Assembly (NCBI GenBank): GCA_037833965.1
Contig: AP031356.1
Location: forward strand, 9,446,501 to 9,510,500
Reading direction: 5' to 3'
Length of the DNA stretch: 64,000 nt
From: Marchantia polymorpha subsp. ruderalis
Taxonomy: Eukaryota > Streptophyta > Marchantiopsida > Marchantiales > Marchantiaceae
Positions 14,511-26,452 of the stretch are shown here, piece after piece. Numbering within the stretch: the stretch's first letter is position 1; every line of letters starts with the position of its first letter. The position numbers were made by a program, and so were the translations under genes. The notes beneath the pieces were generated by a model that saw nothing but the letters and a program-made list of their open reading frames with translations, searched no databases and was not told where the DNA came from.

Positions 14511-14922
14511 TTGTGTAAATTGTAAACATATTTTCATTCTTGTCAATCTTCATAAAAGCTCAAACAACAACAATAAACATACCTTTGATTTTGGATCCTT
14601 TGACTTGATAAATACAAGTATCTAAAATTTCTATAAGTATCTAAACAAAATATGAAAAGTTATGGCTTAAAATGTTAGCTTTTAATTTTTTCAATTTATA
14701 TATGATTTAATCATTTGTAATCAAGAGAGATTCAAGACAAAAGTTTTAGAAGGATAAATAATTATAATGAGTCTATAGTATTTATGTGATATTTTCAAAT
14801 AATGTTTAAAAATTAAGTTTTGTGAGAAATAACTCCTGAAATAAAATAACTCAACTCTCAAAGTATATTTTTTAGAATTTATAGGAATATTATGACATTT
14901 TACAAGATTTTTATGAAAAAAA

Positions 14923-15484
14923 GCAAAGTTTGTAAAATCTATCATGACTATATATTTATGCTATGTGGATGAAAATTTAGTTTAAGTGAATTCCTAAAAC
15001 AACAAAAAGTTTCAAAGGATAGTATAACACTTGATGACATGGCAAAATTTATCAACATCATGATTCGAGGGAGATATGATAATGGGTTTGTCAGCTCCAC
15101 TATTTTCAAATTAAATTTTTTTGTGTCTTAACTCATCAGTGCCTGAAATGTAGCAAAATTTGTGCATGTTTTGGCCTTTAAGGTTTCAAGATGCAATTGT
15201 TTAAATCTTCCCTTGAATAAAAAGCAAAGTTTGTGAAATCCATCATGACTATATATTTATGCTATGTGGATGAAAATATAGTTTAAGTGAATTCCTAAAA
15301 CAACAAAAGATTTCAAAGTATAGTATAACACTTGATGACATGGCAAAATTTATCAACACCATGGTTTGAGGGAGATATGATAATGGATGTGTCAGCTCCA
15401 CTATTTTCAAATTCAATTTTTTTGTGTTTTGATTCAAAAGTGCCTGAAATGTAGCAAAATTTGTGCTTTTTTTGGCCTTTAAGG
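14923..15484 (-). repeat. 301-bp direct tandem duplication inside the old relic
   Basis: Unit one is 14923-15223, unit two 15224-15484. They match closely, starting GCAAAGTTTGT(A/G)AAATC and sharing TTTATGCTATGTGGATGAAA, AACACTTGATGACATGGC and TAGCAAAATTTGTGC. Unit two stops abruptly at AAGG, where the younger element begins. The missing end of the unit reappears in diverged form from 26416. Confidence 0.88.
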
Positions 15485-15854
15485 TGTCGTGCGACTCAGT
15501 ATCGCCATACTTCATACATCGCTGACATGCTCTACTCATAACTCACACATACATACACAAGGAACGAGAGTGTTCACACACAAAGGTATCACAACTAAAA
15601 GAAAGGTAAATGTCAAAACTGTACAAAGAGTCGAGCCCAACCCACGACTCACAAGTAGAATAAGGGTCGAAGCTATGGGGATCAACCCCGACGCGAAAGG
15701 CTCAACTCGAAGAATTGACAGTTCTTCGAGTTCGCCTCCTATAAAACCCGAGCCAGCCGACGTCCCAACGTGCATGGCGGTTCCAACGTACACGGTGTCC
15801 CAACGTGTATCTGCCCTCAAACTCAAATCAACACCAACGTCTCGAGCCATGACA
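15485..15854 (-). repeat. Left long terminal repeat, 370 bp
   Basis: Begins TGTCGTGCG and ends GCCATGACA, giving TGTC...GACA inverted termini, with target repeat AAGG on its outer side. It has two parts: segment A (15485-15596, 112 bp) and segment B (15597-15854, 258 bp). B recurs at 26154-26411, and A recurs alone at 15857-15968. B holds four copies of CCAACGT (15765, 15783, 15800, 15834) and a TATAAAA at 15740-15746. These are plausible promoter elements, though the TATA reads on the plus strand while the coding frames are on minus. Confidence 0.8.
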
Positions 15855-15856
15855 GT

Positions 15857-15968
15857 TGTCGTGCGACTCTGTATCGCCATACATCATACATCGCTGACAT
15901 GCTCTACTCACAACTCACACATACATACACAAGGAACGAGAGTGTTCACACACAAAGGTATCACAACT
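15857..15968 (-). repeat. Partial extra copy of LTR segment A
   Basis: Repeats 15485-15596 over its full 112 bp with only a few substitutions, and is separated from the left LTR by two bases (GT). It ends exactly at the A/B boundary of the LTR and is followed by the pol 3' flank instead of segment B. Confidence 0.85.
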
Positions 15969-15980
15969 CGCCCCCCTAGC
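15966..15980 (-). promoter_or_regulatory. Candidate polypurine tract
   Basis: On the minus strand, AGCTAGGGGGGCGAG lies 3' of the pol stop and directly abuts TGTGATACC, a possible LTR start. In Ty3/gypsy elements the polypurine tract primes plus-strand DNA synthesis just upstream of the 3' LTR. The position fits, but it abuts segment A, not the TGTC terminus that carries the target repeat. Confidence 0.5.
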
Positions 15981-16126
15981 TGGCGGTCAGGTCCCTCTGA
16001 CTCCCAGGTAGCCCTATCTACAACTACATGCTATGCACCTTCGTGTGTGCGTGAACCAGTAGGCCGGGTGCTATGTTGCTTCATCGTTAGTCGCCTATCT
16101 GCAATTCATAACATGTGAAGATCAAG

Positions 16127-17710
16127 TCATCTACCCTCTGAAGTACATCGAGGACAAACCCACCGTCCAGTAGGAACAACATCAATAGGTGGAGTCAAGC
16201 ATGACATGTGCCATCCCCTAGAACACCTATCACACACCAACATATGGGCCGCCTGATCAGCTGACCCACATAACATGCACCTCAAGCCGGCACGGACAAT
16301 CGCCAAGCTTGGATCCATAGTACCATCTACGTTTGGGAGGTGGCATGGCGCACAATTGCGCACATGATCCTTCCAAAGGACACCATCACGACCCTCCAAC
16401 ATGAGAACTCCAGAAGGTAACACCTCTCGCACTCGCAAGATAGTGTGTCTTGCCGTCACATCTAACGTAGTCGGTGCAGTCTGCTGTAAATAAACGTAGT
16501 CTCCCACACGAAACCTACGAATCGATGGTCGATAACCTCCTCCTCGAATAGTTGCATACCGCAACGTATCCCTGTGCTGAGCAATCGCAAGGTTCTCGAA
16601 CCCTACAGGCATAACTCTCCGAAAGAGCACTGCACGTTGAGAACACACTCTCACCCACATATCTGAATCATCAAGGTTCACCACCTCGCTAGACTCACGA
16701 CGAATCGCTGCAGGCAAGTCTGGATCTCGGCCGTACAATAGAAAATATGGTGAAAACGAAGCCAAGGATGCTTGACGACTGAATCGATATTCCATGCCCA
16801 GCCATGGTAACTGAATATCCAAGTCCCCAAGATGCCCCTTCTGTAGGCCATACTTGCGCAACGCTCTCTTCACCGTCTGTACCATCCGCTCAGCCAAACC
16901 ATCTGCCTTTGGATGATCTCGGGAAGTAGTCCGATGATCAATCAGCGTCTTGTCACACAAGACCTGAAACTCACCCTGGAACTCTGTCCCCTAATCGGTC
17001 AACACCTCAGCTGGTGCACCAAAGTGACTAATCACCCTGTCAAGAAAAGCATATGCTACTCCCTCACTCGCCTTGTTAGGTACTGCCACCAACTCAATCC
17101 ACTTGGAGAAATGCTCCACCATCACCAACACATACCGATGATGTCGTGTAGTCAAAGGTAGTGGTCCAGCAAAGTCCAAACTCGAACGGTAATCCAATCC
17201 CATGATAGGTAAGGGATGTAACTCTGGTGTCGGGGCATTGAACAATGCCCTCACTCGATCACAAACCATGCAATTTGATACCAACTACTGCACATGCGTA
17301 TGCATACCACGCCACCAATACTGACCTAGGAGTAAGCTGTACGTACGCTTCACCCAAAAATGTCCCAACTCCTCACGAGCATGCCTCACAATGCGTGTTC
17401 TCTGAGCTGGATGCGGTACTACTCATACCTTACCGTCCTCCCACACTCGGAGAACATGTGATCCCTCCAATCGATATCTCTTCGCCCGCTGGAGAACACG
17501 ATCTCGCTCCTTGGCACCCACTGTGTGTGGCACCATACTGGTCCGTAGGAACTCCAACACCAACACATCATCGTGAACATCACGCTGGTTCACACCGCCA
17601 TCCTCCTCAGCATCCGAAAACTGACTATCTACTCTCTGACTAGAGTAAGATGTCAAGTGGTCCTCACTACGATAGGCTTCACGTAACCAACACATGAAGG
17701 CCGATGCATG
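16127..17710 (-). pseudogene. Integrase with C-terminal PHD finger (pol end)
   Basis: Inserts element cDNA into the host genome; three internal stops (17423, 17285, 16991) in one frame. The HHCC zinc-binding domain is visible: HAREELGH, then NCMVC at 17255-17275. Catalytic triad: Asp in SLDFAGPL, Asp in EVLTD just before the stop at 16991-16993, and Glu in DGLAERMVQ (residue 24 of the last open segment). A GDYVYLQQ segment follows, as in gypsy integrase C-termini. The last 50 residues form a PHD finger (about 16145-16279) with ligands C228, C231, C243, C246, H251, C254, C269, C272, a DRCSRGWH core and GRWVCPRC end. PHD fingers read the histone H3 tail. The CLTPP and GRW features resemble PHDs that bind H3 unmethylated at K4, which is inference. 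It takes the place where chromoviruses carry a chromodomain. The frame ends at TAG 16127-16129. Confidence 0.9.
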
Positions 17711-17713
17711 CTA

Positions 17714-19261
17714 ACCGGGCACCATCTCCTCATCAACCTCACCATGCCACCTAGCTCTAGTGTCATCCTCCTGGCTAGTGCATGGGTTCCGACTCAAACC
17801 GTCGGCATCCAGGTTCGCAACTCCAGGCCTATGCACCACTTTAAAGTCGTACTCATGTAAGATGAGAGCCCACCGTGCAAGCTTCCCTGTGAGCTTGTCA
17901 GACTCCATCAATCATTTGAGCGATTGATGATCGGTAACAAGGGTAAACTGCGTACCAAACAAGTAACACCTGAAGTGTGCCACAGCCCACACCGTTGGCA
18001 AACACTCTCCCTCGTACAAACTATACCGCGACTCTGCTGCATTGTTCGAACTACTAGCGTACGCAACCACAAACTCCTTGCCCTCATCATCACACTGCGT
18101 CAACACCGCTCCAAGTCCCAACATACTCCAATCAGTGTGCAACTGGTATGGACGACCTCTGATAGGTCTCCTCAAGATGGGAGCGGCCACCAACCTGGCC
18201 TTGAGCTCAACAAAAGCTCTCTCCTGCTCATCTCCCCATTGCCACTCCTGATCCGACTTCAGCAACTGGTTCAAAGGCTTTGCTATAGCACTGAATCCCT
18301 TCACATACCTCCGGTAATAGTTCGCCAAACCCATGAATGCACGAACCCTACTCACATCCGCCGGACGAGGAATGCGCGCAATAGCCTCCACCTTTGCCTG
18401 CTGAACTCCCAAACCACCTGGGTAGATCACATGACCCAAGTACTCCACCTTCTCATGGAAGAACCTACACTTACCAGGATGTAACAGCAGACCATGAGCC
18501 CTCAACCGCTCAAGCACAATCTGCAAATGTATTTGGTGTTGCTCCACCGTGTCGCTAAACACCAAGATATCATCAATGTAACATCTGACGAAATCTAGCC
18601 TTGCTAGAATCCTGTCCATCACTCTCTGGAACTCGGCAGGTGCATTCTTCAACCCAAAGGGTAAGAATTGCCACTGATACAAACAATCGTTGCCGTGGGA
18701 GTTGACACCCCAAAACGCTGTCTTGGCCTTGTCCTCCTCCCGAATCGGCAATTGATGGTATCCCGGTCGAAGATCCAAAGTACTAAAAATCCTCGCATGT
18801 CCCACCACATCGAAGATCTCCTCAAGTGTAGACATGACATACTTATCGGCCTTCGTCTGCCGATTGATAGGACGGTAATCTCCACACATCCGCCTATCCG
18901 TGTAGTTGCCATGTACATCCTTCTTCGCTGGCATAACAGTGGCTGAAGCATACTCACCATGCGACAACTCCACTAACCCAGCCTCCAATAATTCCAACGT
19001 CCGACTCTGAATCAAGTCCCTTTCCATATCACTATATCGATAGGGACGACGGAAGATTGGCGTATCACTAGCCAACTCTATCCGTATGCCGGGTCCAATC
19101 AAAGTACCCAACTCCTTCATACTGAAGGCAAAACAACTCCTATAGTCACGTAGGAATTGTATCAACCGTCGCCTCTCTCCTCCGGTGATCTGAGAACCAA
19201 TCGATGGCTCCCACTCCTCCTCCATGGACCCACAAGAGGGAGGCGATACTGTCACTGGTTG
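17714..19261 (-). pseudogene. Reverse transcriptase and RNase H domains of pol
   Basis: Copies element RNA to DNA and removes the RNA strand. In the open segment 19255-17912 (447 residues) the RT motifs are FSTLDLRPGYHQ (catalytic D161), LPFGLKNAPAEFQ (199-210) and YIDD (226-229, catalytic pair intact), followed by the thumb/connection GHVIYPGG and FMGLANYYRRYVKGFS. RNase H follows with D375 (HTDWS), E417 (YEGE) and D442 (TDHQS). A stop at 17912-17914 sits where gypsy RNase H normally has Trp, and the frame resumes (ARWALILHEYDF, RPGVANLDADGLSR) to a stop at 17711. Upstream stop is 19262-19264. All catalytic residues I can place are intact, so inactivation is recent relative to the old relic nearby. 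Confidence 0.95.
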
Positions 19262-19264
19262 CTA

Positions 19265-20545
19265 TGACACCTCCTCCAAAGGAGGGTTCTCCGTACCCTC
19301 CTTCGTAGCAACCTTCCTGTGACCATCATCTTCAACTTCATGGGCGTTCACTCTCGCAAGTACTCTCGTCACGTCCCATGAACTCCAAGAATGACGAATA
19401 TCTCGCAAGTCGCGCCCAGCCATTGCCACTACCGTCCCGGTAGGCAATGAGCTAATAAGTGGTGTAACAACCACCAAATCTGCGCGCAAACGGCGTTGCT
19501 CGGCCAAACCCAAGCTCATAATCCACGTCAAGCAGTTTAGGTCCATAGCCTTACCCAAAACCTGACGACGCGACGCCTCTGAAACTGAAGAAGCCGCGGT
19601 CACACCAGTCAGAAACCCCATCGCACGCTCTCTCTCATCAGCGTTGAGCTCCACCAACTGATGTAGGGTACTGTCCCACAGTAGTCTAGGTCCCCCATCA
19701 CGATATGCATGTGATGCCAGATAACTGAACAACGTAGGCAAAGCCATCAGAGGCTGACCTACGTGGTTCACCAATGCCATGGGTGACCTATCCGCCACTC
19801 TCACCACCTGAGAGTATCGAGAGACATCCAAGATCCTGTCAACGGTAAGTGTTGGATCACGATGCACAGAATCATACACATGACGCAATATCTCTCGTGG
19901 TACAAGGTTGGTCCACCATAAACGTGCACGATGAGCACGTGAGCCAACCCTCGCAACATCCAACAACACTGCTAATCCAATCCATGCCCTGACCTCATGG
20001 ACACTCGCCATCAACTGGGCCCGAGTGTCACCCAACAATGGTACATTCTCTAGAATGTATGGGGGAGAACGTGTTTGCTGCTCCTGAAGATGACGTAACA
20101 CTCGTAGCATTTCTCAAAACATCCGAGATCTCGGGTCATGTAACCCTGCTCCATGCCCAACGCGTGTGTGCCCCTGAAATGGCCATCCCGCAATCACCAA
20201 ATCGATATGTCCAACTCGATCGAGGTCTGGCACCCCCAGCAATGAAATGTCTAAAGGCAACGCCTTCTGGTATTCTTGAACAGCTGATCGCGGCAACAAC
20301 AAAGGAAAACGCTGCATAAACTGTGTAACATGTCGTGAAGAAACCCGACTTGCAGTCTTGTCCTTCTCCACGTACAAGTATCTACGTACAAGAATACTTG
20401 ACTGCAACACTGCAGCCAAACCCGTGCTGATCCCTCCATAAAGATCCAGCAAATTAACACCCTCTGGGGAATACTCCCATACGATAGGTGTAGTAACTAA
20501 TGGTGATAGGGTGCTAAGACCACATACTAACCGATCACCTGAGAC
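19265..20545 (-). pseudogene. DNA cytosine-5 methyltransferase domain within pol
   Basis: Family role: transfers methyl from S-adenosylmethionine to cytosine C5. Motif I is LDLYGGISTGL (20449-20417). Motif IV is GWPFQGHT, where the catalytic PCQ is PFQ (TTT codon at 20177-20179). Then GLHDPRSR and a TGA at 20114-20116. In the same frame follow motif VI ILENV, motif VIII GSRAHRARLWWTNL, ERERAMGFLTGVT (motif IX/X region) and RRQVLGKAMDLNCLTW (motif X). The motif order is canonical, not the rearranged order of plant DRM enzymes, and the HRAR(L/Y)xW(T/G)NL block resembles DNMT3. It lies between protease and RT in the same frame as both, so it was part of the polyprotein. An in-frame TGA at 20546 precedes it. 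This copy lacks the catalytic Cys and cannot methylate. The fold assignment is firm; the subfamily is less so. Confidence 0.92.
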
Positions 20546-20548
20546 TCA

Positions 20549-21763
20549 CTCTGCCTCTGCTGGTAAAGAGGCATCACTCCAAGCCTTCTTCACCAACCTA
20601 TCAGCCTTCTGCTGTAATGCGTGGCAAGAACCCCAAAGTGGAACATCCAAAGATGATGACACTGCCGCTGCAAGACTCACCATCTCCTCCACCTCCTCAT
20701 AGACTGGAGTATCCTCGGCTGACCTGTTCCCCTCCAACAAGTCATCAGGCCATGTGAGCACTCCACTGAAACCCGCAATAGAGGCTAAAACTGCAAGAGA
20801 AGATCCAAGAGGTCGATCTCGAGAAATGAACCTCACAGGCAGCTCACTCATACGTCCATCACCGGACTTCCAACCAGGGCAATAAGCTGCCGTCTCCGTC
20901 CAATAATCCATCCGAAATCCCATCGGATATAACACCGCTCCACCAACAAGCACATCATATGACTTTGCTGATATAACCACCGTTCGAACTCCAAACTGCG
21001 AGCTATCCTGAGCATGACCATGTCTCAGCTGCACTGATATGCACTCTTTGGTCATCCTGTAAGACCTGTCGCTGGTGCCACCGAGTGATGTCTGAATCTG
21101 GAACGGACAAGTCTCCAACTCGTACCTCCGAACTCCTAAACTAATGCATGCAATCTTGCCCAACGTCAAAGGCTGTGCACAAGAATCAAGCAACACTCTG
21201 GCTGGGACATATACCTGCCCTGTAGCACTCACCAAGTGAAATACACAGCTCCGGTTGTCCACCATACACACACCAGGGACAACCCTCTCCCGATCAATGG
21301 CTGGTCGGGCTAGCAAGGACTCCATCCGTGCCGCTGCCACCTGCCATGTCGACTCATCGCTCGATGGAGTCGTAGAGTATAGCTCCTCATCAATAGTCTC
21401 GCCTATCTCGGCACTCGTAGCAGTGATACTCCCACGTTCACAAAACGTGGCTGCTACACAAAAAACCCGAGCCAAGTCAATCCCAGAGTCCATCAGCTCC
21501 ATAGCTAAAAATAGTGGAGATCTCATCACTGAGCTAGCCATCCGCGTCACTGCACTAGATGGTGTGTCCGTGTCCACCACACGTGACGTAGATGTCTCAG
21601 TCCTTCCACTAAGTTCACTAGGTGGTACAGGTCTTATGGATGAAGTATTGCCCAACTCTGACAACAAAAACGACTGGGGAGTGTCTGGCCTGACGTCCAC
21701 CCTTACCCCTCTGAGGATCCAACTCCCCTGTCGCACCGCGTGGCTCTGAAGCTCGAGTTGCAC
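20549..21763 (-). pseudogene. Retropepsin-like aspartic protease region of pol
   Basis: Start of the pol frame, overlapping the end of the gag frame by about 145 bp in a different frame, as in elements that make pol by frameshifting. The 405-residue open stretch has a long variable N-terminal half, then a retropepsin-like core VYVPARVLLDSCAQPLTLGK. The active-site triad is at 193-195: Asp193 is kept but the usual Gly is Cys (DSC instead of DTG/DSG). RTVVISAKSYDVLVGGAVLY follows, a typical second strand pair of plant gypsy proteases. It would cut the polyprotein. The listed start is only the first usable codon of the open frame. The region ends at TGA 20546-20548, after which the frame continues unbroken into the methyltransferase. 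Confidence 0.8.
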
Positions 21764-23312
21764 CTCTAGTCACTGCAACCGATGCCTCCACCTGTGGTGC
21801 ACTCGCTAAATAAGAGAAATCCTCTTCCTCGTAAGAGATGGAAGTGCTCGCCCCAGAACTCGCCATAGCTGCAAGCCTCTATTCCAACTGCTCAATCCGA
21901 GCAGCCATCGCGCTCTCTGTGGCAGAAGTAGCACTCGCTACAGGACGTCCAACTACACCGGCACCTCGACCACCTCTACCAGCACGGCCACCTTGACCTC
22001 GAGAAGCATCACCACCACGACCTCTACCACTAGATGTCAACTCTGGATGAAGGTCAAAACACCGATCTCGAGTATGACCTGCTCGACCACAGTGGTCACA
22101 CACCACCTGTGCTGACTGGGATCTGGCCTGTGAACTCTGATCTCCGGCCTCCTGGAGACAATCTCTTCGCCGATGATCCCCTCCACATGTCCAATATGCT
22201 GGTCCCTGCTGCTGGCCAGCAAACGACGGCACTGGTGCACGTGCCCCTGTATCTCTAGCGGCCGTCTGGTGTTGTGTCTGCACTCCGCGACCCCCACTAC
22301 TACCACCACCAAAGAGTCTAGACTGTGCCGTGCTCTGCGGGACACGAGAAGTAGTGGCTGCGTCTCTAGCGAATGAAGAAGTCACCACTCTCTCCTCCAC
22401 TATGTTAAGCTCAATCTTCTCAGAAAGAACAAACACATAAGCCAATGTCGGTGACGCATTGCTCAAGAGGGTAGCATCCCAAACCCTCTGCCGTAGCTCT
22501 CTGTCCAATATCATGTACTAGTACTGGACCGCCTGTGGCTTAGTTACACCGTGAGTAACTGAGATCAACCGCCGCATACGAGTGTATGCCTTCCGAAGAC
22601 TCTCACCAGTCTTCCGCTCAAACTCCTGAAGACTCCTCAACTTCTCCGTCCTCACCCCCTGATAGTTCTTCCTCAACCTCTTGAAGAACTCAGGAATGGG
22701 GCTGAACGAAGGTACGCCAGTAGTCTCCCTACTCGTGCTGGCAACGCCAACAGCACCGATGGTGGTACCTGCTCCACTAGTACCATCGGTGATGCTACCA
22801 CTCGCACCTCCACTGGTACCAACACCACCCTGGGTGATTGACATATAGTTTGGAGACCAATGACGCCTCCATGCGTCAATCTCCACAGCATACTCTCTCC
22901 CAAACTCATGGTAGTCATCCATGGGAGGCCCCTCTAGATGCTGAAACAACCCCTTCCATGCAAAGAAGGGTGTAAACAACGTGGGGTTACGCAAGAACTG
23001 CATATCGCACCACGTGTCAAACTCCTGGATGAAATCATCCAACTCAATGGTGCCCACTGCCCCAAAGTACCGCCGTGGGCCCTTCATGGCCCCGTTCATA
23101 CCGTCCATGTCCCCAGTCCACGAGTGTGGGACCCTAGATGATATCATCACCAAAGATCTGCTATATGCCACACCCCGCGCCTCTGCAACCACTGATGCGC
23201 TAGGATGAGGTAGCCGATACCTCAACACACTCCGCGTAAATCCTCCACGGTCCTCAACGGAACCACCAAACTCCTCCGTGATGACTAACTCACCAACCGG
23301 CACCACTTCCAC
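21618..23312 (-). pseudogene. Gag (capsid and nucleocapsid)
   Basis: Structural protein of the element's virus-like particle. The capsid-like part includes FIQEFDTWCDMQFL and FAWKGLFQHLEG, and then RRMRRLISVTHG-like text in the retrotransposon-gag region. A TAG at 22516-22518 interrupts it, and the frame resumes with ILDRELRQRVWD. A basic, Gly/Arg-rich nucleocapsid has one complete CCHC knuckle, CDHCGRAGHTRDRC (about 22057-22098), and one degenerate knuckle, YWTCGGDHRRRDC, whose first Cys is Tyr. A second TAG lies at 21879-21881, after which the same frame runs to 21618. The true start codon is unclear: the frame is open to a TGA at about 23406-23408. Confidence 0.88.
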
Positions 23313-24248
23313 AACTCCACCTGCCCTTGTCCCTACACTAACCTGCTCTAGCCCTACTGACTTTGGGTATGGGCAACCTAACCTGTCATCACCGCAAGAA
23401 GACTCTCATGGTCCACTGGTCATCACTCCAGTCTCACCATGAGAGAAACAAAGATAGGCGCCGGTGATAAAATCCAACTGCACTATCGACAGCACACTAG
23501 AGTAAAGCTACTCCGGAAATCAGCGTCAACCCAAACATGGGCGCGCATCAAGAAGCCAGACTGGAGAGGATCCAAACACAAGAAAAACAACTAGCAACGA
23601 TTCTCCAGTCAAAATCAAACACAACACATCATGGAAAGTCGCCTCACGTTGCGCTCCATCATCCCCTGTCATCTTCCGTCACCAGCGCTATCTCCTGCAT
23701 CGCGTTGCCAAGAAGATATCTCCGCCAAATTGTTTTGTCCGACAACTCACTTCTCCCCTTCTACTAGAGTAAGGAATCTAAAACGTCCGCCTAATCCACT
23801 CGTTCCCCAAAAGAAATGGTAAACAGATGAAATGTATACTTCCACCACTTCAACCAACACAGACAAGAAAAACTAAAACTCTAGTATAATGTTCACCACG
23901 TCATATAGCTAGAAGTACAATGTAAAGGCATTGTACAACTGAAAAATCATATAGTGAGACCAAGTGCATGTTCTTAGTCTCTTCCGAATACTCTACTTTC
24001 CTCTTCTTATATATATATATATATTTATATCATTTTTTTTTCTTTTTTTTTCTATATAAATATATACAAAAATTAGAAAGCTTACTGGGTATATAAAAAA
24101 AATTTGAAATACCGTAATGCCCACAGGTGGTGGTGCAAATTGCTAAATGAAAACACTTCCGAAGTTGAAAGATCTCCATTCGTCACTTCAGAATGTGCAG
24201 TTCGTGAACATGTGCTTTGGTTCGTTCTGCACATTCTTGTACATTCTT
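23313..24248 (-). other. Element leader, gag-proximal part
   Basis: No long frames. An AT-rich tract with (TA)n at about 24007-24027 and T-runs follows at 24000-24060. I found neither LTR segment nor a standard initiator-Met primer binding site here. Confidence 0.5.
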
Positions 24249-24759
24249 GATTTCCAGCGTTGTACTATTGGCAATTGCTGTTTCAGGATTTTACAGAGCT
24301 TCTGCATCACATGCCCAAAGCGACTCACGTTACTGCTCGTCAAAACTGTTCCTAAGCACCAGGACGGGCGGCTGCGGTGTTCAGAAACAAGCTGGACCAG
24401 CGAGGAGGGGATTTTCAGAGCAATGAAGTAGAAAAAGCTATTACTGTACGTCGCCTTGACGACTTTCACACGGGTTCACGTCAACGTGAACATGGTTCAT
24501 TCTGCACACGTCAACATGAACACTTGACGTGAACCCGTGTGAAAGTCGTCAATGCGACGTACAGTGATAGCTTTTTCTACTTCATTGCTCTGAAAATCCC
24601 CTCCTCGCTGGTCCAGCTTGTTTCTGAACACCGCAGCCGCCCGTCCTGGTCCTTAGGAACAGTCTTGACGAGCAGTAACGTGAGTCGCTCTGGGCATGTG
24701 ATGCAGAAGCTCTGTAAAATCCTGAAACTGCAATTGCCAATAGTACAACGCTGGAAATC
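24249..24759. repeat. Large near-perfect inverted repeat, 236-bp arms, 39-nt loop
   Basis: Left arm 24249-24484 and right arm 24524-24759 are reverse complements with no gaps and about six mismatches by eye. The loop is 24485-24523. The arms start GATTTCCAGCGTTGTACTAT on the outside. Transcription through this region would give a long double-stranded hairpin. No target duplication flanks it, and the arm sequence encodes nothing I recognise. Confidence 0.93.
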
Positions 24760-26153
24760 GTCTCGCTCGTACCTCTCACGAGTTTCGTCAAACAAGCATG
24801 TCCCTGGGCCCTCTTGAAGATTGGATGTCGCAAATTGTTTTCGAACAAGCGAGTTCTGTGCACGGCCAGTCGCTGTCGTACAGTCCAACTTTCCCGTGTA
24901 CGGCAGGAAACATCACAGAAGAGCACAAGCTGTAGATCAGATTTCCACAAAAGCAGTACGAAGCCTTTTAGGACTGCGGAGTTGCACAATGCTGAACACT
25001 GTCATGTACTCAAGAAACTCCTTTAACTCCCGCGTTGGCTACTCAGCAAATCCGAATGGTTGCAGTAGCAGCAGCTTTGCTGAAGGTAGACACAGTGTGA
25101 CCAACATAAAATATTGCTTATTCGGAGACATATTGCGAGATTTCAGCATTTAAAAGCCATAGGTCCTTCCACATGGTGTCCTTGAAACCTGAAATCTACC
25201 CACTACTGTATCTATAATTTGGAGAAGGAGACGTCAAAGGTGGGTGGAGTTCAACACATTGTCTTCCTTCTGATCCGCCTGAAACCCGGCCGATATATAA
25301 GCCTTCTCGAAAGCTCCAAGTCGCCAGACAATGGCCGCAAGAAACCAGCGAGAAACAGTTCCAGCCAGGTCAAGGCGAGGATGAACTCGAACCGAATGAA
25401 CACGGGCTCCCTTACGATGATCTCACTCGCAAAAGAAGGCGGAATAAAACTCATGAACAGCTGGTATTATCACGCCGCGACCGGCTCGAAAACAACAACA
25501 ACTGACATCCGACTTTACACGTCCGAGCGAGTGAAGTCAGTCAGCTCCACCACGACCACGAGCCTGCGGGCAAACAAGATTGCCTTGCCCTGACCGATCG
25601 ATCTGCAACTCACTCACTTACTCATTCAATCAATAAATCAATTCGTGCAAATGAATCTCCTCTCGCTCCCTCTTCCCGTCGCCCCTCACAAATATTTCCC
25701 CTCGTCAGCCGACGTTGACGCCCGCAAAATTGCGCTGCTGACCGAACAAGAAGCGGCTTCGAATCCCACCATTCACTCCATCGCCAAAGATCTTTATGTG
25801 CCCTTTTATTCCAATCAATGCATGCATAACATATCTTCCTCGATGTTTTCTTGCCGTATGCGCAACGAATTGACAGTCTTGTCAAATCCCCGTTTCAAAA
25901 CCGACGACCTTCTCTCAAGACGAAAGGAATCTACAGATAGCTCAAACCGATAAGCCTATGCTATAATCTCGGATCTTCCGTATAGGAAACACTTTGCAAA
26001 CACTTTTCAAGAACGAAAACATGAAAAGATTCCCGAGAAAAGCCCAAACAATAACCTGAAAACACGAACAAAATCAGGAAAGAAAAACCGAATAAAACAC
26101 AAACAAAATATCTAAACAAGCTACCCTGTTGCATTCACGTGAGTTCTTTGAGT
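24760..26153. other. Element leader, LTR-proximal part, with possible captured DNA
   Basis: Mixed-composition sequence without recognisable retroelement motifs. 24780-25150 continues the material next to the right arm of the inverted repeat and has short open frames on both strands. GATATATAAG at 25291-25300 is a good TATA box on the plus strand, with an ATG 30-40 bp downstream (25332). 25970-26130 is A-rich. It could be captured host sequence or an old nested insertion. Confidence 0.4.
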
Positions 26154-26411
26154 AAAAGAAAGGTAAATGTCACAACTGTACAAAGAGTCGAGCCCAACAC
26201 ACGACTCGCAAGTAGAATAAGAGTCGAAGCTATGGGGATCAACCCCGACGCGGAAGGCTCAACTCGCAGAACTGACAGTTCTTCGAGTTCGCCTCCTATA
26301 AAACCCGAGCCAGCCGACGTCCCAACGTGCATGGCGGTTCCAACGTACAGGGTGTCCCAACGTGTATCTACCCTCAAACTCAAATCAACACCAACGTCTT
26401 GAGCCATGACA
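26154..26411 (-). repeat. Right terminal repeat, segment B only
   Basis: Matches LTR segment B (15597-15854) over its full 258 bp with scattered substitutions, and ends GCCATGACA with AAGG after it. Segment A is absent; the 112 bp to its left are unrelated. An alternative inner edge is TGTTGCATTCACG at about 26128, which would make a 280-bp repeat with TG...CA ends. Confidence 0.85.
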
Positions 26412-26413
26412 AA

Positions 26414-26452
26414 GGTTTCAAGGGGCAATTCTTTAAATCGCCCCTTGAAACC
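26414..26452. repeat. Palindrome at the insertion edge, 13-bp stem
   Basis: GGTTTCAAGGGGC (26414-26426) and GCCCCTTGAAACC (26440-26452) are perfect inverted copies around a 13-nt A/T-rich loop. The related site in the old tandem repeat (15182-15217) is a decayed version. The younger element inserted at the left shoulder of this hairpin. Confidence 0.85.

Follow-up and report, generated by a model that had tools for sequence, protein, structure and literature searches.

Copies of a Ty3/gypsy retrotransposon family in the liverwort Marchantia polymorpha carry a DNMT3-type cytosine-5 methyltransferase that is under purifying selection and is encoded in one frame with Gag and protease, ahead of a UAG stop codon that is conserved before the reverse transcriptase (RT). 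This is a paradox, an element bearing the kind of enzyme that is used to silence its own kind. A Ty3/gypsy family of liverworts and other streptophytes appears to have acquired the methyltransferase, which is now the final domain of the Gag-protease polyprotein (ORF1). Our joint explanation brings together a DNMT3-type enzyme on the Gag-protease side, RT and integrase produced through a leaky stop, self-priming, permuted integration and methylation of the cDNA, and we consider it rather probable as a whole. As far as the literature was searched, what is new is the land-plant family itself, the conserved UAG, the PHD finger at the integrase terminus, a putative Tf1-like self-priming layout and split repeats with 4-bp duplications. 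The high copy number, the selection and the open copies in genetically tractable Marchantia make it testable why a transposon would methylate DNA.

The Element and Its Decay

The window, i.e., the whole stretch of 64,000 nucleotides that was analysed (G000:C7:9446501-9510500), contains a decayed Ty3/gypsy element at 15485-26411 on the minus strand (Table 1). From 26411 to 15485 the order is the terminal repeat part A1, a long leader, Gag, protease, methyltransferase, RT-RNase H, integrase with a terminal PHD finger, and the repeat parts B1-A2-B2. The element starts with TGTC, ends with GACA and has CCTT on either flank. A preliminary description of this DNA had reported methyltransferase motifs I, IV, VI, VIII and IX/X in canonical order, sharing a frame with the upstream protease and the downstream RT, and this is confirmed on the minus strand. 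The description had also named the element a Ty3/gypsy retrotransposon with a methyltransferase between protease and RT, which the domain matches bear out. The order RT-RNase H-integrase, with Integrase_H2C2 and rve, is found in two other Marchantia copies (L009 and L022) and in the relative L038, and by this domain order the family is classed as Ty3/gypsy. The matches at the Gag-protease end are below threshold: Retrotrans_gag matched two other copies weakly, under its Pfam cut-off, and Asp_protease_2 scored 20.5 bits in L038 against a cut-off of 24.3.

Table 1. Features of the window element and the basis of each assignment.
Feature	Position	Strand	Basis
5' terminal repeat part A1; TGTC start; CCTT outside (26412-26415)	26153..26411	-	96% identity to A2 at 15596-15854
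Putative self-priming site position, directly after A1; decayed in window copy	26142..26153	-	In five other copies, reverse complement of stretch 29-30 nt downstream of TATA box
Gag-like region; TAG breaks at 22518-22520 and 21879-21881; out of frame with protease region in window copy	21879..23405	-	ORFs
Protease region, decayed; VLLDSCAQP in window, VLLDSGAQP in L009	20546..21769	-	ORFs
DNMT3-like cytosine-5 methyltransferase domain, broken (PFQ, one internal TGA)	about 19484..20461	-	Limits carried over from L009 HMM match; identity from homologues
Motif I, DLYGG	20432..20446	-	Sequence
Motif IV, catalytic loop; PFQ in window copy, PCQ in 20/20 fetched copies	20174..20182	-	Sequence
Motif VI, ENV	20042..20050	-	Sequence
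Motif VIII, HRAR	19922..19933	-	Sequence
Tail from methyltransferase to leaky stop, weakly constrained (dN/dS 0.62 between subfamilies)	19265..19483	-	dN/dS
Putative leaky stop UAG + CAACCA (CARYYA type), ORF1 end	19256..19264	-	Sequence; consensus from PMC2754532
ORF2, RT-RNase H-integrase-PHD; several stops in window copy	16127..19261	-	ORFs, Pfam
PHD finger, integrase C-terminus	16145..16279	-	PF00628, 7.3e-11
Putative polypurine tract CCAGCTAGGGGGGCG, directly before B1	15969..15983	-	Sequence
Terminal repeat part B1	15857..15968	-	97% identity to B2
Terminal repeat part A2; linked to B1 via GACA-AC-TGTC	15596..15854	-	Repeat comparison
Terminal repeat part B2, GACA end; CCTT outside (15481-15484), read as 4-bp target duplication	15485..15596	-	Repeat comparison

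In-frame stops lie around the window methyltransferase at 20546-20548, 20114-20116 and 19262-19264, and there are more in Gag and ORF2. The stops at 20546-20548 and 20114-20116 are decay; the one at 19262-19264 is conserved across the family. With PFQ in place of PCQ and several stops, the window copy is dead. Its leader holds an inverted repeat between A1 and Gag (24249-24759; 236-nt arms, 97% complementary, 39-nt loop), and its form suggests that a foldback element inserted here. A 270-nt repeat is present twice in tandem (93% identity) at 14918-15488, immediately past the element's 3' end.

Identity of the Methyltransferase

The preliminary description had looked to a profile of C5-methylases for support, which came from other copies and not from the window itself. 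Pfam matched no family on either piece of the window methyltransferase, and the NCBIfam dcm model matched the window segment, read across the internal stop, at 4.6e-6 and 26.5 bits, far under its cut-off of 100.65. Both other copies scanned passed the cut-off of Pfam DNA_methylase (6.6e-9 and 1.5e-9). Against the PDB, the top match of the L009 domain alone was DNMT3A (2.5e-11), and a profile made from 11 sequences placed DNMT3A first at 6.1e-24 (best 60 of 67 matches). The same profile matched 4onj at 3.9e-14 and DRM2 at 1.4e-10, both over positions 3-130 only, followed by HaeIII, HhaI and DNMT2 at about 1e-9 and DNMT1 at 0.08. The entry 4onj is named only 'DNA methyltransferase', and we take it to be tobacco DRM. 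A predicted model of the close homologue P0050 (39-sequence alignment) had a mean pLDDT of 89.5 and a pTM of 0.90. All 50 of its listed PDB fold matches were DNMT3A/B/C entries, some of them complexes with DNMT3L, and the best had 22-23% identity to DNMT3A.

The profile and fold matches thus put the element methyltransferase closest to DNMT3, ahead of DRM, DNMT1, DNMT2 and the bacterial enzymes. It shares fold, motif order and an HRxR-type motif VIII with eukaryotic DNMT3, i.e., human DNMT3A/B and an apparently DNMT3-like exon of the Marchantia host. The element enzymes have the canonical, unrearranged motif order I-IV-VI-VIII-IX-X. A DRM source is ruled out by this order and by the better DNMT3A profile score, in agreement with the early reading of a DNMT3-like origin. 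PCQ, ENV and HRxR are present in 20/20 fetched copies and the full motif I in 17/20, in a set biased to long frames. Across the 11-sequence alignment, neither the catalytic Cys nor the Glu-Asn of motif VI varies. A broader set of 54 full-length domains includes five with EC in place of PC and five missed by the narrow search pattern; one of the latter, P0049, reads SPC by eye. Pfam at E 0.1 found no further DNMT3 domain on ORF1 of L009 and L022.

A viral donor of the methyltransferase is not favoured by comparison of the predicted model. In the fold search, the best viral match had an E of 5e-16 and a target TM of 0.52, against 8.5e-19 and 0.81 for DNMT3A; the highest target TM among the viral fold matches listed was 0.68. 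The host exon mentioned above lies in one fetched stretch (L001, 1249-1881) and belongs to a host DNMT gene. It has 31% identity to the element domain over 134 columns and, by our reading of the sequence, appears DNMT3-like.

Copies and Selection

The genome searched comprises 241.5 Mb in 9 contigs. It contains at least 123 scored places that match PF00145, host genes included, at least 137 scored matches to the C-terminal segment of the window methyltransferase and at least 94 to the window RT, the window being counted in the last two. All of these are lower bounds because only the best candidates were scored. A methyltransferase match lies upstream of the RT match in 80 of the 94 cases, 79 of them at 3-12 nt and one at 514 nt. 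Five further RT matches have a Pfam methylase at the expected distance and two have it about 3 kb upstream. The remaining seven have no methylase match, and six of these were recovered, with methyltransferase tail and junction, in a search with the junction. The idea that other copies would share the protease-methyltransferase-RT order with an intact PCQ is therefore upheld by these 80 cases and by the PCQ of all 20 fetched copies.

We fetched 20 copies of 10 kb, mostly picked for long frames, with two divergent ones added. Both reading frames are open in 12 of them. Ten of the 12, which fall into two subfamilies and give 24 non-independent pairs, were used for dN/dS. Between the subfamilies, dN/dS is 0.12 for the methyltransferase, 0.07 for RT, 0.07 for integrase, 0.19 for Gag, 0.19 for protease and 0.62 for the tail. 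Within the subfamilies it varies (methyltransferase 0.18 and 0.19; RT 0.09 and 0.31; PHD 0.30 and 1.81). The methyltransferase domain is under purifying selection, and with 0.12 against 0.07 it is retained almost as strictly as RT.

The Stop Before the Reverse Transcriptase

The preliminary description had joined the methyltransferase to the RT in one frame. The shared frame holds, but a UAG separates Gag-protease-methyltransferase from RT-integrase in all 20 fetched copies and likewise in the window and L038. In the fetched copies the first frame (up to 1365 aa) stops at this TAG and ORF2 (up to 1045 aa) goes on in the same frame. The six bases after the TAG match CARYYA in 19 of the 20 and in the window, and L038 has TAG-CAATCA at the equivalent point. 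TAG was found in 148 of 150 scored genome matches across the junction, its exact position being verified in the fetched copies only. The two without it lie at G000:C2:17474404 and C5:31766699; one has TAA and one has no stop. After UAG, CAR YYA is essential to the readthrough of tobacco mosaic virus (TMV), and the TMV sequence gave 32% readthrough in the assay of the same study (PMC2754532).

By its TMV type I context, the UAG of the family is a putative leaky stop. ORF2, with RT, RNase H and a DDE integrase that ends in a PHD finger, would then be made as an extension by readthrough of UAG-CARYYA. If ORF2 is made in this way, the methyltransferase would be packed into particles at levels nearer to Gag than to Pol, so the putative stop predicts the enzyme at a near-Gag dose. 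As judged from the reading frames, the methyltransferase would be part of the ORF1 product whether or not the UAG is leaky.

Terminal Repeats and Priming

Plain identical LTRs at both ends are absent from the family copies examined. The repeat order is A1-body-B1-A2-B2, with A1 at the 5' end and B1-A2-B2 at the 3' end. Ends were examined in the window copy and in nine of the 20 fetched copies; the 5' ends of L014, L024 and L025 lie outside the fetched stretch. B1 and B2 enclose A2 and share 97-100% identity in the copies examined. A 4-bp duplication flanks A1 and B2, by eye, in 7/7 copies in which both ends were found (CCTT in the window, TCTT in L009, GGTT in L012, TACT in L015, GTGC in L016, AAGA in L022 and GATG in L026). 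GACAGCTGTC is the sequence at the B1-A2 junction in 15 of the 20 fetched copies, as it is in L038; the other five copies lack it. A purine-rich tract lies directly 5' of B1 in most copies examined. Extra repeat units are present in L024 and L026. The unit in L026 (8643-9438) lies at the 3' end, where this copy has two GACAGCTGTC junctions; its 4-bp target duplication is normal, and the extra unit fits concatemers. The ends of L038 overlap by 127 nt, which is not evidence of a real circle because collapse of a repeat in the assembly graph would give the same.

Five copies have an 11-13 nt stretch, 29-30 nt 3' of a TATA box, that is the exact reverse complement of the sequence right after A1. 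L038 is arranged in the same way, with a 13-nt pair of other letters. No such pair of 10 nt or longer was found in the window copy, which is decayed. The 5' stretch can also pair with a 12-14 nt inverted copy just upstream, both in L038 and in four of these five copies. The start of the RNA is placed only from the TATA box 29-30 nt upstream.

The RNA is probably self-primed as in Tf1, its 5' end pairing with the sequence directly after A1; the RNA would then start at AGTTCTTCGAGT. Reverse transcription would yield an LTR of the order B-A. The cDNA is probably circularised or joined in tandem and then cut by the integrase at the B/A palindrome, so that the provirus would be permuted (A-body-B-A-B) and flanked by a 4-bp target duplication. 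The combination of DIRS-like split repeats with 4-bp target duplications suggests such integrase-driven insertion from circular or concatemeric cDNA. We know of no palindrome-cut route through circular or tandem cDNA for elements with a DDE integrase.

Role of the Methyltransferase

We infer that the most likely role of the methyltransferase is to methylate the cDNA of the element itself. The preliminary description had proposed the element's cDNA or its target as substrate, which would agree with the layout of the domains. It would most likely act on new cDNA in the particle or the pre-integration complex, and the cDNA would enter the nucleus already marked like host DNA. A check for CpG depletion in Marchantia copies against the rest of the window gave no clear signal of self-methylation. 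CpG observed/expected is hardly lower in the copies (0.71-0.73) than in the rest of the window (0.73-0.77), and TpG/CpA is 1.27-1.29 against 1.18-1.20, with a GC content that differs too. Differences of C/T type between copies were compared by context in 17 of the 20 fetched copies (L019, L027 and L028 were left out), in groups of 10 and 7. They amount to 0.032 and 0.024 at CG, 0.037 and 0.031 at CHG, and 0.022 and 0.014 at CHH. The rise at CG and CHG means that integrated copies were probably methylated in the past; it is what host methylation alone would give and is not diagnostic.

Could the domain be kept for something other than DNA methylation? A structural or nucleic acid-binding role in Gag, such as RNA or cDNA binding or particle assembly, is unlikely in our view. 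It would suit a domain that sits in the Gag-side product, and the nearest published relative, KnitGypsy-Dnmt3, gave no methylation in yeast (PMC5890265). The five EC variants and the five domains outside the narrow pattern among 54 point the same way, but the retention of PCQ, ENV and HRxR in every fetched copy and the invariant catalytic Cys and motif VI Glu-Asn speak against such a role. Another possibility is self-restraint in trans, the methyltransferase helping to silence existing copies or insertion sites so that the host is harmed less and the lineage lives longer. A related idea, in which slower retrotransposition spares the host, was discussed by de Mendoza et al. (PMC5890265), and the rise of C/T differences at CG and CHG agrees with self-restraint. 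We think this quite unlikely, since the same pattern can come from host methylation alone and a self-silencing gene is not obviously favoured by selection on individual elements.

The arrangement itself can also be read in other ways. If ORF2 had its own start or a spliced RNA, the UAG would be an ordinary terminator and not a leaky stop. Among the 20 fetched Marchantia copies, 17 have an ORF2 Met at residue 13 and the remaining three at residue 5 or 48, and the Met at residue 13 leaves room for a start of its own. Two things argue against this. The UAG lies in the same frame and is followed by CARYYA in 19 of the 20 copies as well as in the window and L038, and the first Met of the L038 ORF2 is residue 117, inside a conserved region whose homology to L009 begins at residue 22; we judge an independent start very unlikely. 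That the methyltransferase is a recent chance insertion or a pseudogene fragment in one copy could be suspected from the broken window copy. This case, which the preliminary description had given as its own refutation in the form of a one-off insertion, is refuted by the at least 137 scored genome matches, the purifying selection, and the relatives in Sphagnum, Calypogeia, Riccia, Marchantia paleacea, Closterium and metagenomes.

Returning to cDNA methylation, the proposal can be extended to a streptophyte lineage in which a near-Gag DNMT3, self-methylation of the cDNA, circular or tandem cDNA cut at the palindrome GACAGCTGTC, and a PHD finger that reads target chromatin act together. We put this forward tentatively, as a possibility with the odds against it. 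If true, self-methylation and chromatin-guided insertion would be coupled in one element.

Known Elements of Similar Kind

The preliminary description had mentioned retrotransposons with a DNMT, as rare cases, from dinoflagellates and a charophyte alga. Such elements are published (PMC5890265); the host here, however, is a land plant. One of them is KnitGypsy-Dnmt3 of Klebsormidium nitens, a gypsy element that carries a DNMT3 and has repeats like those of DIRS (de Mendoza et al., 2018; PMC5890265). It has in common with the Marchantia family the Ty3/gypsy domain set and an unrearranged Dnmt3-type methyltransferase under purifying selection (PMC5890265). Its repeats are called the same as those of DIRS by its authors, and the Marchantia repeats are DIRS-like too (PMC5890265). 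The domain of KnitGypsy-Dnmt3 is described as lying in the Pol ORF, whereas that of Marchantia ends ORF1, with a conserved UAG before RT (PMC5890265). The host is an alga in one case and a liverwort in the other, and the two elements are compared here by published description (PMC5890265). The words 'PHD' and 'readthrough' do not occur in the main text of PMC5890265. In yeast, KnitGypsy-Dnmt3 gave no methylation, which its authors considered inconclusive because human DNMT3B failed too (PMC5890265). SymbioDIRS-Dnmt3 of Symbiodinium is of Dnmt3 type and was active on CG in yeast (PMC5890265). Like the Marchantia family, SymbioDIRS-Dnmt3 and SymbioLINE-Dnmt are cases of a retroelement-borne cytosine methyltransferase, but they belong to other retroelement classes, with a tyrosine recombinase and LINE, respectively (PMC5890265). 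A paper of 2025 places some DNMT3 members in streptophyte and dinoflagellate retrotransposons, naming LTR Copia and DIRS (PMC12344493). The literature searched, which left most subscription journals outside, held no description of a Marchantia element of the DNMT-bearing kind; nor, with supplements outside as well, did it describe a land-plant family, a leaky stop, a PHD finger or target-duplicated permuted ends.

The layout for putative self-priming resembles that of Tf1/Sushi and of plant Tcn1. These are chromoviruses, and the Marchantia family has a PHD finger instead; no chromodomain was matched by Pfam in the window element, L009 or L022. Target duplications of plant LTR lineages are mostly 4 or 5 bp, and the main text of the source makes no mention of Marchantia, PHD, methyltransferase or DIRS (PMC6317226). 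The repeat order A1-body-B1-A2-B2 of DIRS matches that of the Marchantia family (order as given in PMC5890265). Unlike DIRS, the family has a DDE-type integrase (rve) and not a tyrosine recombinase, and 4-bp target duplications in all seven copies with both ends. To our knowledge, DIRS elements lack target duplications. To judge from these split repeats and the target duplications around them, a tyrosine recombinase may not be needed for a repeat pattern like that of DIRS to arise.

Relatives and Distribution

Family proteins reach 99% identity to annotated proteins of Marchantia polymorpha (P0001), which points to this species or a very close relative as the host. Named matches come from M. 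polymorpha, M. paleacea, Riccia sorocarpa, Calypogeia fissa, several Sphagnum species and Closterium sp. NIES-53, and many more relatives are in metagenome contigs. The searches covered 49 of 49, the best 120 of 188 and the best 120 of 248 matches, with about 8000 scored candidates each, and none of the relatives so listed carries the name Klebsormidium. A methyltransferase together with RT or integrase is found in 31 of 221 entries. It is upstream of RT in 21 of the 31 and after RT in six, five of which then have the integrase. Of the other four, three have it before the integrase, without RT in the piece, and one after the integrase. A PHD finger occurs in members of both main layouts. Some environmental relatives have the methyltransferase between RNase H and integrase in one frame, and placement on the Gag side is therefore not universal. 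In trees of the methyltransferase and of RT for 13 family entries, those with the methyltransferase between RNase H and integrase form a clade in both (0.996 and 0.997). Because the long branch of P0049 takes different positions in the two trees, a single origin is not proven.

Three relatives (P0039, P0041 and P0044) have some 300-350 more residues past the PHD finger, with an APP-like motif. Pfam at E 0.01 found nothing on these extensions, and our guess is that they may be a second, degenerate methyltransferase.

A pattern search of viral contigs gave 19 matches and no relative; the same kind of search in genome contigs gave 103 matches and one relative, L038, with 32% identity in ORF1 and 65% in ORF2. 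L038 is contig CADCWO010000201.1 of a Synechococcales MAG and is binned as a cyanobacterium, and another family protein, P0082, carries the label Candidatus Obscuribacterales. The retroelement family filed under bacteria in these two entries is apparently eukaryotic.
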